Positions 4,362-51,148 of a stretch of 64,000 nucleotides of DNA are shown here, one piece after another (position 1 is the stretch's first letter; each line of letters opens with the position of its first letter). This stretch comes from Pseudomonadota bacterium (GTDB taxonomy: Bacteria; Pseudomonadota; Alphaproteobacteria; Acetobacterales; Acetobacteraceae), in the NCBI GenBank assembly GCA_021815825.1, contig JAKAZO010000003.1, forward strand, positions 1 through 64,000, in the 5' to 3' direction. The notes beneath the pieces are model-generated. The model saw nothing but the letters and a program-made list of their open reading frames with translations, was not told the origin of the DNA and searched no databases. The translations under genes were made by a program, and so were the position numbers.

Positions 4362-4787
4362 CGCCAGACGGCCGGACGGCCGCCGTTGCGCCCCCGAACG
4401 GGGTGGCGGGCGGAGGAAAGTCCGGGCTCCACGGGAATGCGGTGCCGGCTAACGGCCGGCGGGGGCGACCCCAGGGACAGTGCCACAGAGAACAGACCGC
4501 CCGCGCAAGGTTTCGGCCCCCAAGGCCGTAGCCCCGCGGGCAAGGGTGAAACGGTGCGGCAAGAGCGCACCGCGTCGGCGGCAACGTCGGCGGCACGGTA
4601 AACCCCACCGGGAGCAAGACCGAATAGGGGCGGCCGGCGGCATCCCGCGAGGGGTGTGACGCGAGGGCATTCCCGCCCTGCCGCCCGGGTTGGTCGCGTC
4701 AGGCGCGCCGCGAGGCGCGTCGCAGAGGAATGGCCGTCTCGCACCGCGAGGTGCGGACAGAACCCGGCTTACAGGCCGTCTGGCGCC
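4362..4787 (+). ncRNA. rnpB: RNase P RNA, bacterial type A
   Basis: The catalytic RNA that matures tRNA 5' ends. The universal core GAGGAAAGTCCGGGCTCC lies near 4411-4430, and the 3' core ACAGAACCCGGCTTACAG lies at 4757-4774. The ends are defined by a perfect 12-bp P1 helix: 4362-4373 (CGCCAGACGGCC) pairs with 4774-4785 (GGCCGTCTGGCG). The internal ACAGAGAACAGACCGCC and GGTAAACCCCACCGG segments are also typical. Length, about 425 bases, is normal for alphaproteobacteria. No T-rich terminator is evident just downstream. Several long open frames cross the gene but are chance products of its GC content. Confidence 0.97.
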
Positions 4788-25416: not shown

Positions 25417-25427
25417 CCCCCTCGGCC

Positions 25428-25504
25428 GGAGTGTAGCTCAGCCTGGTAGAGCACAGTGTTCGGGACGCTGGGGCCGGAGGTTCGAATCCTCTCACTCCGA
25501 CCAT
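25428..25504 (+). tRNA. tRNA-Pro, anticodon CGG
   Basis: All four arms fold: acceptor CGGAGTG/CACTCCG, D arm GCTC/GAGC, anticodon stem CAGTG/CGCTG with loop TTCGGGA (anticodon CGG), and T arm GGAGG/CCTCT around TTCGAAT. The discriminator is A and CCA is encoded at 25502-25504. The C1-G72 pair is typical of proline tRNAs. Confidence 0.97.
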
Positions 25505-27336: not shown

Positions 27337-28107
27337 CTATTTCGGCGGCTGCACCGTGATCCCGTAATGGCCGTAGATGCGCGCGATCGTCCCGTCCGCG
27401 GCAAGTCGCGCCAGGGCGTCATCGATCGCGCGATGCAAATCGGCATCCGGCTGGCGCATGCCGACGGCGGCATTCCACGCCAAGGACGGCTCCGCCTCAT
27501 CGAAGCCAAGCAGTTCGATCGGGCTGCTGGGGTGCGTCCCGTTATAGTAGCTCGCCGAGATGTAGTTGACGGTCACGGCATCGACCTCACCCTTGGCCAG
27601 GGAATCGAGGCTATCGTCCTCGAAGGCGAAGGTGGAGATGCCGACATGGTGGCGGCCGAGAACCATTGCCGCGTATGAACCCACCAGGACGCCGACCTTG
27701 TTCTGCGAGCTCAGGTCCTGCCAGCCTTTGATCGGGCTGCCGCGCCGGACGGCCAGCACGACGCCGGTATGATAATAGGGCCGAGACAGTTCGAGCCGGC
27801 TCTTCGACTGCACTTCCGGAACGTCGATTGCGTCCATGATGATATCGCAGTCGGCGCGGTAGCGATGGACGCCGCCGACGATCCATTCGGGGTTCAGCGA
27901 CACGCCGAGCGCCTTGGCGAGTTCACCGGCGAGCTCGAGCTGGAAGCCGTGCAGCCCATCCTTGCGACTGGAATAGGGCAACGCATTGGGATGCGCGCAG
28001 ACCCCGAGTGTGCCCCGATCCTTGATCGACTCGAGCGAGCGCGCATCGCCCGCGCCCGGATGCAGGACCAGCGCCGCCAACAGAACCGTCAAGAACGCAC
28101 TCTTCAT
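27337..28107 (-). CDS. Quinoprotein-dehydrogenase-associated periplasmic binding protein (XoxJ/MoxJ-like)
   Basis: A 256-residue periplasmic protein of the type 3 solute-binding fold, with signal peptide MKSAFLTVLLAALVLHPGAG. LESIKDRGTLGVCAHPNALPYS and GFQLELAGELAKALG are typical of the MoxJ/XoxJ group found with PQQ methanol or ethanol dehydrogenases, where they are thought to help maturation or cytochrome contact rather than transport. The ATG at 28107 has AGGAGG seven bases upstream; ATGs at 28113 and 28128 would be too close to or beyond it. It is last in the dehydrogenase-cytochrome-binding protein order, separated by 267 bases that hold repeat element A. Confidence 0.82.
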   Translation of the reverse strand: MKSAFLTVLLAALVLHPGAGDARSLESIKDRGTLGVCAHPNALPYSSRKDGLHGFQLELAGELAKALGVSLNPEWIVGGVHRYRADCDIIMDAIDVPEVQSKSRLELSRPYYHTGVVLAVRRGSPIKGWQDLSSQNKVGVLVGSYAAMVLGRHHVGISTFAFEDDSLDSLAKGEVDAVTVNYISASYYNGTHPSSPIELLGFDEAEPSLAWNAAVGMRQPDADLHRAIDDALARLAADGTIARIYGHYGITVQPPK

Positions 28108-28122
28108 CGCCATCCCTCCTGC

Positions 28123-28237
28123 GAGCACGGCCCGGCCTGATGGAATGATCAGGTCGGGGACCCGTGCTCTAGAACCATATGAGTCTAGAGCAACGTCTCT
28201 CCAGTCTGCCCGAGCCGGAACGACTCAATCAGACCGG
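28123..28237. repeat. Three-hairpin repeat element, copy A
   Basis: 115 bases. Hairpin 1 is GAGCACGG/CCGTGCTC (28123-28130 with 28162-28169), enclosing an inner arm CCCGGCCTGAT/ATCAGGTCGGG. Hairpin 2 is GCTCTAGA/TCTAGAGC (28166-28173, 28184-28191) around a 10-base loop containing CATATG. Hairpin 3 is CCAGTCTG/CAGACCGG (28201-28237) with an inner GAGCC/GACTC. The 3' side of stem 1 overlaps the 5' side of stem 2, so they exclude each other. It lies just 5' of the XoxJ-like gene, reversed relative to it. Copy B is at 48639-48754. Confidence 0.8.
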
Positions 28238-28374
28238 AGGTTGCTGTAGAGCGTGATCCAAGCCCGAATACGCGCGGACCGCGCTCTAACCCGTTGTCTG
28301 TTCGAGCACCTGTATCCTACCAGCCGAGCCCGTCTGATCGGATGTCGCTCTCGCCGCCGACAGGTGGTGGCGAA

Positions 28375-28713
28375 TCACTTGGATGGCAAGGAGCGGATGT
28401 AATGCAGGATGTTCTGTATCTGCGCATCGTCGAACACCTTGCCCCAGGCCGGCATGGCGCCCGCCTTGCCGTTCTTGATCCGATTGATGATGAACGCATC
28501 ATCGCGCGCCGTGCCGGCGAGTTTCGGTCCCTTGCCGGCCTCGCGGCCGCCGTCGCTGTGGCACCAGCCACAGGAGGTGGCGAACAGGATTTCCCCGTTC
28601 TTGGTGGGGTCGCTGGGAGGCGCCGCTCCGGTCTCGGCCCGGGCCGGCAGCGCGGCAGCGGCAAACAGCAAGGCGAGCAAGGCGGCACGGGAAAACAGGA
28701 TCATGTCTGCCAT
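28375..28713 (-). CDS. Secreted c-type cytochrome, electron acceptor of the PQQ dehydrogenase (XoxG-like)
   Basis: A periplasmic class I cytochrome c, 112 residues with a signal peptide (FSRAALLALLFAAAALPARA). Haem attachment is Cys48-x-x-Cys51-His52 (CGWCH) and the distal ligand is Met87 (AGAMPAWG). It follows the dehydrogenase by 78 bases on the same strand, so it probably takes electrons from reduced PQQ to the respiratory chain. The start is uncertain: ATGs at 28713 and 28704 are both possible and neither has a clear ribosome site. Confidence 0.88.
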   Translation of the reverse strand: MADMILFSRAALLALLFAAAALPARAETGAAPPSDPTKNGEILFATSCGWCHSDGGREAGKGPKLAGTARDDAFIINRIKNGKAGAMPAWGKVFDDAQIQNILHYIRSLPSK

Positions 28714-28791
28714 CGCAACGGTCTCAGAAAGCTCCAAAAGCAAAGGGGAGCGGAGCCGAAGCTCCGCTCCCCCCATTCCAACAGTTCAGAC

Positions 28792-30543
28792 TTACTTCGT
28801 CGCCATCTTGTCGGAGCCAAGGCCGAACACGACGAGTGCACCGGCATCGCGCGGCATGCTCTTCCACGGCTCGCCGAACATCGAGCCGTAATCGTCGCCG
28901 ACGAGCCCGCCGAAGCCGGCCTCGACCGCGATATACTGCTTGCCGTGCGCCATGTAGCTGATGATGCCGCCGTTATGGCCGACGCCATCGTTGTGCGACC
29001 ACAGTTCCTTGCCGGTCTCGGCGTCGTAGGCATGGATGATACCAGCCGCGTCAGGCAGGAACACCAGGTTGCCGGCCGTCGAGAGCACGCTGGCCGTGGG
29101 CGGTGCGTTGTACTTGACTTCCCACTTCAGCTTGCCGGTGATCGGATCGCGCGCGTCCAGATGGCCATAGATCTGCCCGCTGGGCGGCTGTGCCATCTTG
29201 AAGTTCGCGCCGATGTTGAGCTGCACCTGCGGCTCGGTGATCGGCGTCGTCTTCACCACCTCGAGGGTGATGCACCACTCGTTGCCGACCTTGTACCAGA
29301 GGCCCGACTTCGGGCTGTAGGAGCCCGAGTTCCAGCTCACGCCGCCGTTGATCGCGGGGCAGAGCGGCTCCTGCTGCGGACCGGCAGAGAAATCCCGCCG
29401 CCCGATCAGCTCGCCCGTCTTCGGGTCGATACCCTTGACGAAATTATAGTTGTGAACGATCGGCCAGACATTCTCGACCTTGGCATTTGCGCGGTCGTAA
29501 ACAAAAATGAAGCCACTCTTGTTGACGTGCACCATGTACTTCTTGCCGCCCCGGTCGATCATCATGAATTCGCCGAGAGCGCTGTCGAAGTCCCAGTTGT
29601 CGTGCGGAAGTTCCTGATGATAGAACTTCAGCTTGCCGGTGTCCGGATCGAGGGCGAGAACCGAGGTGGTATAGAGATTGTCGCCCGGACGCGCGCCCTG
29701 CGTCTTGATGTCCGCGCCCGCCCAGTCATACAGCGGATCCGGGTTCGCCGTGCCCCACCACACGGTGTTGGTCTCGGCGTCATAGGTGCCCGGCATCCAG
29801 CCGCCACCGCCGCCGATCCGCCAGGTATCGTTGCCCCAGGACTTCTTCGCTTCCTCGGTGCCGGCGGTCGTGCTGAACGACCAGATCTGCTTGCCGGTCG
29901 CGGCATCGACGCCAAAGATGGTGCCCTGAACCGGCCACTCGCCACCCTGGCTGCCGATGATCACCTTGCCGCGCACGAACAGCGGCGCGCCAGTGAAGCC
30001 AACGGTCAGCTTCTGGCTGTCGACCAGCTTGGTGTCCCAGGCAGCCTGGCCGGTCTTCATGTCGAGCGCGATCAGGCGGCCATCGACGGTGCCGACATAG
30101 ACGTGACCGTCGCCAATGGCGATGCCGCGATTGTACGGCGAGTGCGTCTGACGGGCGATCAGGTCTTCGTCGAGCTTCGGAATGTAGCTCCACAGAACCT
30201 TGCCCGAAGCGCCATCGATGGCGAAGACGCGGCTGAACGACGAGGAGTAGTAGACCACCCCGTCCACGGCCAGGGGCATCGACTGCATGCCGCGCGTGGT
30301 GCGGCCGGGGAAGTGCATCCAGGCCACTTCCAGGTTCTTCACAGTCTTGGTGTTGATCTGGTCGAGACCGCTGTAGTCATAGCCCTTGTAGGAGCTGTGA
30401 TAGGTCAGCCAGTCCTTCGAGTCATGGTCGGCTGCTTCCAGCCGCTTGGCGTCAACCGCCTGCGCCATGCTCGCGACCGAACCCAGCATCGTTCCGGCGA
30501 CCAGCGCCGCCGAGAAAGCGATGAATCTGGACTTCACCCGCAT
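28792..30543 (-). CDS. PQQ-dependent methanol/ethanol-type dehydrogenase with lanthanide-type Asp pair
   Basis: A periplasmic quinoprotein alcohol dehydrogenase, 583 residues, eight-bladed propeller, with signal peptide SRFIAFSAALVAGTMLGSVA. Visible active-site residues: Glu202 (GGEWPVQG), Asn267 (GTANPDPLYDW), catalytic Asp318 and the extra Asp320 (HDNWDFD), and Lys342 (HVNKSGF). The Asp-x-Asp pair is the signature of lanthanide-dependent enzymes (XoxF, ExaF). The vicinal Cys-Cys of most methanol and ethanol dehydrogenases is absent; the aligned stretch reads THSPYNRG at about 133-140. There is no C-terminal haem domain, so the separate cytochrome is needed. The start at 30543 has GGAGGAAG upstream. 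Substrate unknown. Confidence 0.9.
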   Translation of the reverse strand: MRVKSRFIAFSAALVAGTMLGSVASMAQAVDAKRLEAADHDSKDWLTYHSSYKGYDYSGLDQINTKTVKNLEVAWMHFPGRTTRGMQSMPLAVDGVVYYSSSFSRVFAIDGASGKVLWSYIPKLDEDLIARQTHSPYNRGIAIGDGHVYVGTVDGRLIALDMKTGQAAWDTKLVDSQKLTVGFTGAPLFVRGKVIIGSQGGEWPVQGTIFGVDAATGKQIWSFSTTAGTEEAKKSWGNDTWRIGGGGGWMPGTYDAETNTVWWGTANPDPLYDWAGADIKTQGARPGDNLYTTSVLALDPDTGKLKFYHQELPHDNWDFDSALGEFMMIDRGGKKYMVHVNKSGFIFVYDRANAKVENVWPIVHNYNFVKGIDPKTGELIGRRDFSAGPQQEPLCPAINGGVSWNSGSYSPKSGLWYKVGNEWCITLEVVKTTPITEPQVQLNIGANFKMAQPPSGQIYGHLDARDPITGKLKWEVKYNAPPTASVLSTAGNLVFLPDAAGIIHAYDAETGKELWSHNDGVGHNGGIISYMAHGKQYIAVEAGFGGLVGDDYGSMFGEPWKSMPRDAGALVVFGLGSDKMATK

Positions 30544-31036: not shown

Positions 31037-31113
31037 TGGGGCGAGCGATGGGATTCGAACCCACGACATCCAAGACCACAACCTGGCGCTCTACCAACTG
31101 AGCTACGCCCGCC
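31037..31113 (-). tRNA. tRNA-His, anticodon GTG
   Basis: On the minus strand: an extra G at -1 opposite C73 (the histidine identity feature), acceptor GCGGGCG/CGCTCGC, D arm GCTC/GAGC, anticodon stem CCAGG/CTTGG with loop TTGTGGT (anticodon GTG), T arm GTGGG/CCCAT around TTCGAAT, and encoded CCA at 31037-31039. Confidence 0.97.
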
Positions 31114-48590: not shown

Positions 48591-48638
48591 CTTGTGCGTC
48601 GGGCACGGTCGCGCCATTGTCCGTCGCCCGCGAGGGCT

Positions 48639-48754
48639 GGAGCACGGTGCGACCGGGTGGACCCATCGGGTCGGGCGGCCGTGTTCCAGAAACATATGAC
48701 TCTGGAGCAGCTTGCCGCCGATCTGCCCGAGCCGGAGCGGCTCAATCGGATCGG
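48639..48754. repeat. Three-hairpin repeat element, copy B
   Basis: 116 bases, the partner of the element at 28123-28237. Hairpin 1: GGAGCACGG (48639-48647) with CCGTGTTCC (48679-48687) and an inner CGACC/GGTCG arm. Hairpin 2: GTTCCAGA/TCTGGAGC (48683-48690, 48701-48708) around a 10-base loop with CATATG. Hairpin 3: CCGATCTG/CGGATCGG (48718-48754) with inner GAGCC/GGCTC. Stem 1 and stem 2 share bases as in copy A, and the 9-base gap between hairpins 2 and 3 is the same. Its end is 33 bases before the coxL-like ATG. Confidence 0.8.
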
Positions 48755-48787
48755 GGGTCGTTCCAGCATGGGAGCAGCGCTCGGACC

Positions 48788-51148
48788 ATGGATGCACGGT
48801 TTGACGAAACCGATCTTTCCCTGACGAAGTTCGGCATCGGCCAGCCAGTGCCGCGCAAGGAGGACCCGACTCTCCTCCGCGGCGAGGGCCATTACACCGA
48901 CGACCTGTCGTTGCCCGGCCAGGCCCACGCCGTGTTCCTCCGCAGCAGGGTGGCGCATGGCCGCATCGTCTCGCTCGATGTCGGCGCTGCACGGGCCATG
49001 CAAGGTGTGGTCGCCGTACTGACCGGTGCGGATCTCGCCGCCGCCGGCTTGCGCGCGCTGCCACCCGGGATGCAGGCGCCGTGGCCGAAGGGCGCGCCGA
49101 TGCCGCCGCAGCCCCCGCTGGCCGTTGAGCGGGTCCGCTTTGTCGGCGAACCGGTCGTCTGCGTCATCGCGGAGACCGTCCAGCAGGCGCGCGACGCCGC
49201 CGAGGCGGTCGCGCTGGACATCGACCAGATCGATGCCGTCACGCTGGCGTCCGCCGCCGCGGCGCCGGGTGCACCGCTCCTGCACGAGGCTGCGCCGGGT
49301 AACATCGCCTATGAGTACCAGTATGGCGATCGCGACCGGATCGCCGCAGCCTTCTCCGCCGCCGCCCATGTCACCCGCCTGGCGCTGCGCAATACGCGCC
49401 TCGTGGTCAGTCCGATGGAGCCGCGGGCGGCGATCGGGGCCTACGATGCGGCCAGCGAACGCTATACGCTCCATGTCGGCTGCCAGGGCGTGTTCGGGCT
49501 TCGCAATGGGCTCAAGGATGCGCTCGGCGTGCCGACCGAGAAGGTCCATGTGCTGACCGGACAGGTCGGCGGCTCGTTCGGCATGAAGGCCGGCGTCTAC
49601 CCGGAATATATCGCCCTCCTGCACGCGGCCCGGCACCTCGGCCGGCCGGTGAAGTGGCGCGACGACCGTTCCGACAGCTTCCTCTCCGACAGTCATGGCC
49701 GCGACCATGAAATGGTCGTCGAACTGGCGCTGGCCGCGGACGGCAAGTTCCTCGCCGTCCGCGTCACCGGCTACGGCAATGTCGGCGCGTATCTGACCAA
49801 CGCCGCGACGGTACCGCCAAGCATCAATGCAGTGAAGAACATCATCGGGGTCTACGGCACCGATCTCGTCGAGGTGCAGACGCGTTGCGTCTACACCAAC
49901 ACGACGCCCGTTGGGCCTTATCGTGGCGCTGGCCGCCCCGAGGGCAATTATTACATGGAGCGCCTGGTGGAAACCGCGGCGCGCGAGATGGGGCTCGACC
50001 CGCTCGCGCTGCGCCGGCGCAACCTGGTCCGCCCGGAACAGATGCCCTATGCGACCCCGGCCGCGACCACCTATGACAGCGGCGAATTCCCGACCATTCT
50101 CGACAAGGCGCTGGCGGCGGCAGACTGGGATGGGTTCCCTGCCCGCCGTGCCGCCAGCCGCGCACGCGGGCTCCTGCGCGGGCGTGGCATCGGCCACTAC
50201 CTGGAAGTCACCGCTCCGCCCTCCCGCGAAATGGGCGGACTGCGCTTCGAGGCGGACGGCACGGTGACGATCATCACCGGCACCCTCGACTACGGCCAGG
50301 GCCATGCTTCGCCCTTCGCCCAGGTGCTGGTGGAAAAACTCGGCATTCCCTTCGCGCGGATCCGGCTCCTCCAGGGCGACAGCGACGAGCTGATCGCCGG
50401 CGGCGGCACCGGCGGGTCCAAATCCATCATGGCCAGCGGTGCGGCAATCGTGGAAGCCAGCGCGCTGGTCGTCGAGAAGGGCCGCAAGGCGGCGGCGCAC
50501 GTGCTGGAAGCGGCCGAGACCGACATCGAGTTCGCCATCGACGGTTCGGGCGGGCACTTCCGCATCATCGGCACGGACCGGCGCATCACCGTGCTCGACC
50601 TCGCCGCCCAACTGCGCGGTGCGACGTTGCCAGAGGGCGTGCCGAACTCGCTCGACGTCCGGCACATTCACGAAGGCGCACCTTCGGCTTTTCCCAATGG
50701 CTGCCATGTCAGCGAGGTCGAGATCGACCCCGAAACCGGCAAGGTTGCCGTCGTCGCCTACACGATGGTCAATGATTTCGGAGTGCAGATCAATCCGCTG
50801 CTGGTCGCCGGTCAGGCCCATGGCGGCGTGCTGCAGGGCATCGGCCAGGCTCTCTTCGAGGAGGTGCGCTTCGACGAGAGCGGCCAGCCGATCACCGGGA
50901 GCTACATGGATTACGCGCTCGCCCGCGCCACGGACGCGCCGCCTTTTCTCGTTTCCAGCCACCCGGTGCCAGCGAAGACCAATCTTCTGGGCGCAAAGGG
51001 CTGCGGCGAAGCCGGCTGCGCCGGCTCGCTACCCTCGGTGATGAACGCCGTCGTCGACGCTCTGGCCGAATTCGGCGTCCACCACCTCGACATGCCCGCC
51101 ACGCCCGAGCGCGTCTGGCAGGCGATCCACGGCTCCGCTACGGCTTGA
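48788..51148 (+). CDS. Orphan molybdenum hydroxylase large subunit (CoxL/XdhB-like)
   Basis: A catalytic molybdopterin subunit of 786 residues. RKEDPTLLRGEGHYTDDLSL is the N-terminal family start and TGQVGGSFGMKAGVYPEY a cofactor loop. The active-site loop reads PYRGAGR at 377-383, form II-like with Pro in place of Ala. The C-terminal GAKGCGEAGCAG carries the catalytic Glu. No small or medium subunit gene is adjacent, so it must either borrow those of coxS/coxM at 34-38 kb or use distant partners. The start follows repeat element B. It sits between two paralogous binding protein genes. Confidence 0.93.
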   Translation: MDARFDETDLSLTKFGIGQPVPRKEDPTLLRGEGHYTDDLSLPGQAHAVFLRSRVAHGRIVSLDVGAARAMQGVVAVLTGADLAAAGLRALPPGMQAPWPKGAPMPPQPPLAVERVRFVGEPVVCVIAETVQQARDAAEAVALDIDQIDAVTLASAAAAPGAPLLHEAAPGNIAYEYQYGDRDRIAAAFSAAAHVTRLALRNTRLVVSPMEPRAAIGAYDAASERYTLHVGCQGVFGLRNGLKDALGVPTEKVHVLTGQVGGSFGMKAGVYPEYIALLHAARHLGRPVKWRDDRSDSFLSDSHGRDHEMVVELALAADGKFLAVRVTGYGNVGAYLTNAATVPPSINAVKNIIGVYGTDLVEVQTRCVYTNTTPVGPYRGAGRPEGNYYMERLVETAAREMGLDPLALRRRNLVRPEQMPYATPAATTYDSGEFPTILDKALAAADWDGFPARRAASRARGLLRGRGIGHYLEVTAPPSREMGGLRFEADGTVTIITGTLDYGQGHASPFAQVLVEKLGIPFARIRLLQGDSDELIAGGGTGGSKSIMASGAAIVEASALVVEKGRKAAAHVLEAAETDIEFAIDGSGGHFRIIGTDRRITVLDLAAQLRGATLPEGVPNSLDVRHIHEGAPSAFPNGCHVSEVEIDPETGKVAVVAYTMVNDFGVQINPLLVAGQAHGGVLQGIGQALFEEVRFDESGQPITGSYMDYALARATDAPPFLVSSHPVPAKTNLLGAKGCGEAGCAGSLPSVMNAVVDALAEFGVHHLDMPATPERVWQAIHGSATA

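Follow-up and report, generated by a model that had tools for sequence, protein, structure and literature searches.

Two related palindromic sequences, here called copies A and B, lie in a 64,000-nucleotide stretch (the window) at the start of contig JAKAZO010000003.1 from a member of the Acetobacteraceae, and raise the question of what kind of element they are: a structured RNA, a protein-binding site or a piece of mobile DNA. An earlier note, made from the sequence of the window, had left all three readings open. Alignment confirms that there are two related copies where that note had placed them, but the repeat, although real, is not the 115- and 116-base unit described: A and B can be aligned across 130 bp. 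The features discussed below are:

27337-28107, minus strand: gene for a quinoprotein-associated (MoxJ_2-like) solute-binding protein, beside A (PF00497 above cut-off)
28120-28249, plus strand: copy A, a decayed 130-bp MITE (covariance model R1, E 2.5e-30, model positions 1-130)
28120-28172, plus strand: hairpin 1 of copy A, a 53-bp palindrome (folding; covariation)
28143-28147, plus strand: remnant of a GANTC in copy A, reading GAATG, site lost (alignment; 23 bp from TA)
28173-28184, plus strand: linker of copy A, including CATATG (alignment)
28185-28249, plus strand: hairpin 2 of copy A, a 65-bp palindrome (folding; covariation)
28247-28288, no strand assigned: second, distinct CTAG-type short palindrome, TAGAGCG...CGCTCTA (sequence)
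28375-28776, minus strand: cytochrome c gene, beside A (PF13442 and PF00034 above cut-offs)
48637-48766, plus strand: copy B, a decayed 130-bp MITE with ends CTGG...CCAG (covariance model R1, E 2.4e-30)
48637-48689, plus strand: hairpin 1 of copy B (folding)
48660-48664, plus strand: remnant of a GANTC in copy B, reading GACCC, site lost (alignment)
48690-48701, plus strand: linker of copy B, including CATATG (alignment)
48702-48766, plus strand: hairpin 2 of copy B (folding)
48788-51148, plus strand: gene for a molybdopterin-binding subunit (CO/xanthine/aldehyde dehydrogenase-like), beside B (PF02738, PF20256 and PF01315 above cut-offs)

The element consists of two long palindromes, of 53 and 65 bp, with a 12-base linker between them, and its termini, CTAGAGCA...TGCTCTAG, are terminal inverted repeats of the kind expected of a MITE; in copy A the ends have degenerated, the left reading TGC where CTA is expected and the right GTAG. 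The plus strands of A and B fold better than their shuffled versions (z -5.3 and -4.4; 0/200 shuffles as good), and both free folds show the two long hairpins and an open CATATG linker. The three hairpins proposed earlier are actually these two, the supposed third being the inner portion of hairpin 2, and the CATATG, which is indeed common to both copies, lies not in a hairpin loop but in the linker. What had been taken for a second stem (GCTCTAGA/TCTAGAGC) represents the facing ends of hairpins 1 and 2, and arises because the last bases of hairpin 1 are TGCTCTAG and the first of hairpin 2 are CTAGAGCA; it is missing from the free minimum-energy folds, and forms only when enforced, at a price of 5.0 kcal/mol in A and 2.3 kcal/mol in B. 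The apparent mutual exclusion of stems likewise reflects the CTAGAGC terminus common to both palindromes.

Copy A lies between the cytochrome c and binding-protein genes of a PQQ-dehydrogenase cluster. As previously observed, it abuts a ribosome site, beginning immediately beyond the GGAGGG (28114-28119) of the minus-strand binding-protein gene, a site that is just outside the insertion; the protein itself also resembles TIGR03871 (E 5.8e-17, under its cut-off). The cluster occupies 27337-30543 (minus strand), with genes for a PQQ-dependent dehydrogenase, a cytochrome c and the quinoprotein-associated binding protein in a single order. An 85% identical PQQ dehydrogenase is found in JAIMBF010000009.1, labelled Terriglobia, which is possibly mislabelled or a mixed bin.

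How large is the family to which A and B belong? Copy A gave 51 blastn matches in the window genome (some places counted on both strands), and a covariance model (R1) built from 16 full copies gave 118 hits to E 10, both strands of places included; merged to E about 1e-5, these correspond to 44 places, 17 of them under 1e-20. The element is thus short, multi-copy and non-coding, as MITEs are: 130 bp, present at 44 genomic places, and with at least one stop in each of the six frames of its consensus, frame +3 having one only. A coding peptide was considered on the strength of a gene-like frame following CATATG in copy B (MTLEQLAADLPEPERL...), and rejected on three grounds: the strand is palindromic, the frame is shut after 25 codons in A, and 0/58 copies lie within a called gene.

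Beyond the window genome, the R1 search of 60 genomes was positive in nine: the window genome, two MAGs of the same genus (G001 and G002, where hit numbers are lower bounds) and six further family members. A second model, R2, was positive in 14/288 alphaproteobacterial genomes, the window genome among them (per-genome counts are lower bounds, the best 11 candidates of each genome having been scored), and most of the 17 loci read from the 13 other genomes have TAGAGC-like ends and two palindromes. When relatives are searched with a covariance model, as the earlier note suggested, copies that retain the pairing do turn up in large numbers, without clustering ahead of genes in a single orientation. 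In G001 and G002 the copies are young and near-identical: 32 distinct full-length places were read, 16 per genome, with CTAG at both termini in 26/32, and eight of those in G002 are identical. Tandem copies have one CTAG in common. No match was found by a plasmid search with the element consensus, by R2 over 31 named PQQ-dehydrogenase-neighbourhood loci, or by a pattern scan of named genomes, the last being uninformative, as the pattern did not fit the young MAG copies in the collection.

Orthologous DNA allows the mobility of the element to be evaluated directly. All 13 copies in the stretches analyzed were compared with their orthologous regions, and five, including B, have clean empty sites, in which 4-6 bp separate collinear flanks. 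At three of the five the site is exact (G001:C89:1128, G001:C89:16658 and G002:C28:235854), CTAG having become CTAG-element-CTAG, a target-site duplication that could equally be of 2 bp (TA) or 4 bp (CTAG) at these sites. Copy B is missing from both G001 and G002, which have CCAG between the corresponding flanks, and one old copy corresponds to an empty site of 6 bp. The other eight copies lack a clean empty site: copy A is part of a larger indel, one copy is at a contig edge, two have no flank pair, and four show a larger one-flank change. Copy A is also missing from both relatives, with 237 bp here (28120-28356) corresponding to 7 bp there; the size of this indel is due to further bases adjoining A, among them a second short palindrome of the CTAG type. 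That palindrome (28247-28288) is nested at the right end of A, with a CTAG-type site in common. Two of the four copies with a one-flank change, G001:C89:264-393 and G002:C28:252512-252641, have one flank in common and may be one older insertion.

The dispersed family, the young near-identical copies and the empty orthologous sites show that the element is a mobile MITE and not an RNA gene or a regulator. Of the readings originally offered, the mobile palindromic repeat is the one borne out, by empty sites with flanking CTAG, dozens of copies and recent amplification in relatives. That A and B themselves are decayed, probably immobile remnants of this MITE can be held with considerable confidence; for its movement we infer an IS630-type transposase and, one step further, gating through GANTC sites, both considered below.

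It has to be asked why, if these are MITEs, they look so much like structured RNAs. A cis-acting RNA (riboswitch-like, or involved in RNA processing) in the 5' leaders of metabolic genes, with its fold maintained, would account for the good folding of both copies and for the position of copy B, which is directed towards its downstream gene and ends 21 bp from the ATG, but copy A is directed away from the binding-protein gene beside it, and the 58 copies placed relative to their neighbours occur in both orientations and beside mixed genes. The covariation noted earlier is modest within the window genome and strong across genera. Within the window genome, 612 pair cells are unchanged, 48 have one-sided changes with pairing kept, 108 one-sided breaks, 20 two-sided changes with pairing kept and 11 two-sided breaks. 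The 20 exceed the shuffled expectation (10.7 +/- 2.7; 2/1000 shuffles), an excess that descent from different source copies can explain, and one-sided breaks make up 108/187 of the changed cells. Stem positions differ at 0.137 and unpaired ones at 0.224, and these copies are drifting. In the comparison between genera, which covers 49 pairs in 23 sequences (22 of them distinct), pairing holds in 94% of cells, and two-sided changes occur at 23/49 pairs where shuffling gives 12.3 +/- 1.9 (0/500 shuffles), in an alignment that was fitted to the model and hence leans towards pairing. The palindromes are thus kept despite changes of letter, as they would be if working copies depended on symmetry of their ends; palindromic DNA that goes on transposing yields covariation equal to that of an RNA, and is the source proposed here for the strong covariation of the arms. 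The RNA reading is largely refuted by the orthologous sites that lack copies, and with the mixed orientations, the absence of copies from genes and their decay it is left with very little credence.

At Rfam gathering scores, copies A and B match no family, the only RNAs found in the window being RNase P and two tRNAs. The RNase P RNA gene (class A bacterial) is at 4364-4787, and the tRNA genes are at 25427-25500 and 31040-31112. REPIN, riboswitch and terminator readings of the copies were also considered, and ruled out by size, structure or empty sites.

With a simple home-made gene caller, which assigns a coding fraction of 0.94 to the window, 0/30 of the best window-genome copies and 0/28 of the young G001 and G002 copies are within a called gene, although four of the former overlap a gene end by 18-55 bp. 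In 20/58 copies, the element starts or ends exactly at a neighbor's stop codon, which falls within its terminal four bases (8/30 old and 12/28 young copies) and is TAG in every case. Plain non-coding CTAG sites coincide with stops in 4/42 cases (Fisher p 0.0016 against the 12/28 young copies), a background that is small and in which many sites may already be occupied. The target itself is rare: the window genome has 13 CTAGs in 117 kb where 323 are expected from base composition (about 25-fold rarer), G001 has 37 in 82 kb (223 expected) and G002 64 in 139 kb (373 expected), with 16/37 and 37/64, respectively, resembling repeat ends, in G001 and G002 stretches that were partly selected for carrying copies. 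The parasite aims, in other words, at a tetranucleotide nearly missing from its host, and often exactly at stop codons. Insertion at such a CTAG preserves the stop, leaving the gene intact, and turns one target into two.

The same placement could be read as domestication, former MITE copies now serving as terminators, mRNA-stabilizing hairpins or CcrM-linked regulatory sites: with a TAG stop inside the element's edge, the adjoining hairpin could serve as a 3' end. Insertion into CTAG without gene damage predicts this placement by itself, and domestication appears unlikely; its CcrM-linked version is taken up with the GANTC sites below.

If the element is a MITE, what moves it? A 1991 paper by Tenzen and Ohtsubo, cited in PMC2170065, gives TA within CTAG in its title as the preferred target of IS630, and both the copies and the empty sites point to a TA target with CTAG preferred, as for an IS630-derived MITE. 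IS630-family transposases insert into TA and duplicate it (PMC2170065, in part). G002 contains an IS630 element (L098) of 1054 bp with termini CTAGAGC...GCTCTAG and a transposase that scores 140 bits against NCBIfam IS630 (cut-off 100) and 117.5 against Pfam DDE_3 (cut-off 28.6). Its ends agree with those of the MITE at 14-15 of the first 20 bases, or 10-11/16 beyond CTAG, a level at which about 8 in 10,000 background 16-mers reach 11/16. The common end layout (TAGAGC, 16 bases, GANTC) makes IS630 elements the likely source and helper of the MITE, and an IS630-type transposase its likely mover. Such a transposase (Tc1/mariner-like) would excise the element and paste it into the TA of a CTAG, duplicating the TA; each end of the element carries its own long palindrome, so that it reads as two hairpins.

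A search with PF13358 (DDE_3) found no match in the window genome, which fits with its copies being decayed, or in G001 (assembly 92% complete, 260 contigs), which has many young copies despite the helper being unseen. Among other element-bearing genomes, 12/14 have DDE_3 matches at E<=0.001, 10/14 above cut-off. The missing matches, together with the shortness of the terminal identity, are what might be expected if the element were mobile as described but moved by another CTAG-targeting DDE transposase, its likeness to IS630 being incidental. This is quite unlikely given that CTAG is the target named for IS630 in that 1991 title, and that TAGAGC and a GANTC at +23 are common to 18/19 alphaproteobacterial IS630 ends that otherwise average 43% identity.

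This GANTC deserves closer attention. In 31/32 young MITEs it lies at the apex of hairpin 1 and starts 23 bp in, counted from the T of the terminal TA; these copies are near-identical and do not represent 31 independent cases. Another GANTC begins at position 60 or 61 in 31/32, and may be a trace of an inner IS site or chance. Decayed MITEs keep the +23 site in 5/16 copies, both window copies having lost it; its loss in the other 11 gives no sign of retention for a CcrM-linked function. Elsewhere, GANTC is at 23 in 11/17 loci (9/13 genomes) of the R2 class search, which is biased towards GGAATC at +23 since copies of that kind went into the model, and in 16/18 copies read from G017. In two loci (L172 and L066) it lies within the stem, indicating that the common feature is a fixed distance from the end rather than exposure in a loop.

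Of 34 genome IS630 loci, 25 were end-scanned (one, L221, yielding no candidate) and nine short or weak matches were left out; 13/25 have GAGC-type ends, representing 10 distinct elements. A further 21 plasmid loci came from 60 rows of 899 records, and by eye 9/14 alphaproteobacterial and 5/7 non-alphaproteobacterial ones had resolvable ends (L223, L229, L231, L234, L235, L242 and L243 were dropped). At alphaproteobacterial IS630 ends thus resolved, GANTC starts exactly 23 bp from TA in 18/19, always with reference to the end that precedes the transposase gene: 10/10 distinct elements from six genomes and 8/9 from named alphaproteobacterial plasmids, the overall figure being nearer to 17/18 because L195 and L213 are near-identical. 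The exception is a Methylobacterium element (L230), with no GANTC at that end; in an Aminobacter element left unresolved (L234), a weak candidate for the pair of ends would place GANTC at 10 rather than 23, and its inclusion would make the count 18/20. Further GANTCs start at 56-60 in 16/19 and at 33-36 in 10/19. The motif has a density of 33.7 per kb within the first 75 bp, compared with 0.70 per kb elsewhere. The 43% mean identity applies to the first 66 bp, where only TAGAGC and GA.TCG (23-28) are columns at or above 80%, and the middle base of the latter can be A, G or C. In non-alphaproteobacterial IS630 elements (Hymenobacter, Nostoc, Acaryochloris) with ends taken as resolved, 0/5 have GANTC in the first 75 bp; for two of these controls (L239, L240) other ends would be almost equally good, and L241 has a short alternative end.

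A RAMA domain is found in 4/4 genomes tested; of 14 controls, Caulobacter vibrioides alone has one. The four thus appear to encode a methylase of the CcrM type. The +23 GANTC may be a CcrM-type site that adjusts the binding of transposase to DNA just replicated and still hemimethylated, and the movement of the element would thereby be tied to the cell cycle. The +23 site would act on end recognition, to which it is assigned because it is common to MITEs from several genera, elements that lack a transposase gene, and the inner sites on the transposase promoter. In its full form, the proposal is that an alphaproteobacterial IS630 subgroup and its MITEs, CIR-type repeats included, carry a CcrM site at a distance of exactly 23 bp from the end that holds the transposase promoter, together with others near +34 and +57, through which hemimethylation gates transposition. 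This is a serious possibility, somewhat short of an even chance, suggested by the fixed position and the lineage restriction of the site. A search by title and opening of abstract, with subscription journals mostly outside its scope, found no literature linking IS630 ends with GANTC, and the link is not made in the relevant parts of PMC2229807 and PMC9296519. A fixed-position CcrM site common to a transposon subgroup and to miniature elements makes cell-cycle-tied transposition in alphaproteobacteria directly testable.

As a repeat, the element is ordinary, one further MITE family. The closest relatives by description are the Caulobacter CcrM-associated intergenic repeats, or CIR (Chen and Shapiro, 2003, as given in part of PMC2229807), which likewise have two long inverted-repeat arms and a linker, GANTC in the terminal loop of one arm, TA termini and locations outside genes in alphaproteobacteria (PMC2229807, in part). 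CIR are about 110 bp (same source, in part), whereas the element is 130 bp here, with matches of 83-140 bp in other genomes. The element is best filed as CIR-like, because CIR1-CIR4 are known here by description and not by their letters, and because it departs from the CIR definition of multiple stops in all six frames, frame +3 having a single stop. CIR mobility was unexplained in that 2007 review (PMC2229807), while empty sites are found here; the element thus offers an explanation of how CIR-type repeats move. The nearest functional parallel is the pneumococcal RUP, also a MITE (107 bp), intergenic, with a TA target and ends resembling the resident IS630-Spn1 (PMC2229807, in part). In the same review, again in part, bacterial repeats other than CIR fold end to end; the element instead has a long hairpin of its own at each end, and a CcrM site.

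Among autonomous elements on the plasmids sampled, ISRm10 and ISRm2011-2 of Sinorhizobium share the TAGAGC ends and the +23 GANTC at the transposase-promoter end, with further GANTCs at +57 in ISRm10 and at +36 and +59 in ISRm2011-2; unlike the MITE, they are autonomous, about 1050 bp long, and carry their transposase. The transposases of Tn10 and Tn5 are not known to be related to the IS630 type. These transposons have a Dam site at the transposase promoter and another in an inverted repeat, both read hemimethylated (PMC5390034, in part), and are the mechanistic precedent for the proposed methylation gating, with Dam and GATC in place of CcrM and GANTC. In ISRso3 of Ralstonia, base modification at fixed positions along a multi-copy IS has been proposed to control transposition (PMC5390034, in part), although this is a different IS with a different modification and no CcrM site.

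REP and REPIN sequences are moved by tyrosine transposases. With GTAG or CGTC tags, they resemble the element in being palindromic, intergenic and non-autonomous (PMC3733652, in part; see also PMC3116915), but their units are 20-40 bp rather than 130 bp, and CGTC repeats are missing in Acetobacteraceae (PMC3733652, in part).

Other short palindromes accompany the family. In G017, a search for a partner IS whose ends could be resolved gave none. The best end match there (L214:871-918) was rejected as an IS end equal to that of the MITE, being a separate single palindrome of 48 bp; its left end agrees with the left end of the G017 MITE at 21/24 bases, as if hairpin 1 could occur by itself. Near 235.9 kb of G002:C28 and 16.7 kb of G001:C89 (L110 and L117), further short CTAG-bounded palindromes lie beside 130-bp elements, one example being a 35-base hairpin flanked by two CTAGs (AGTCTGTCAGCG...CGCTGACAGACT).
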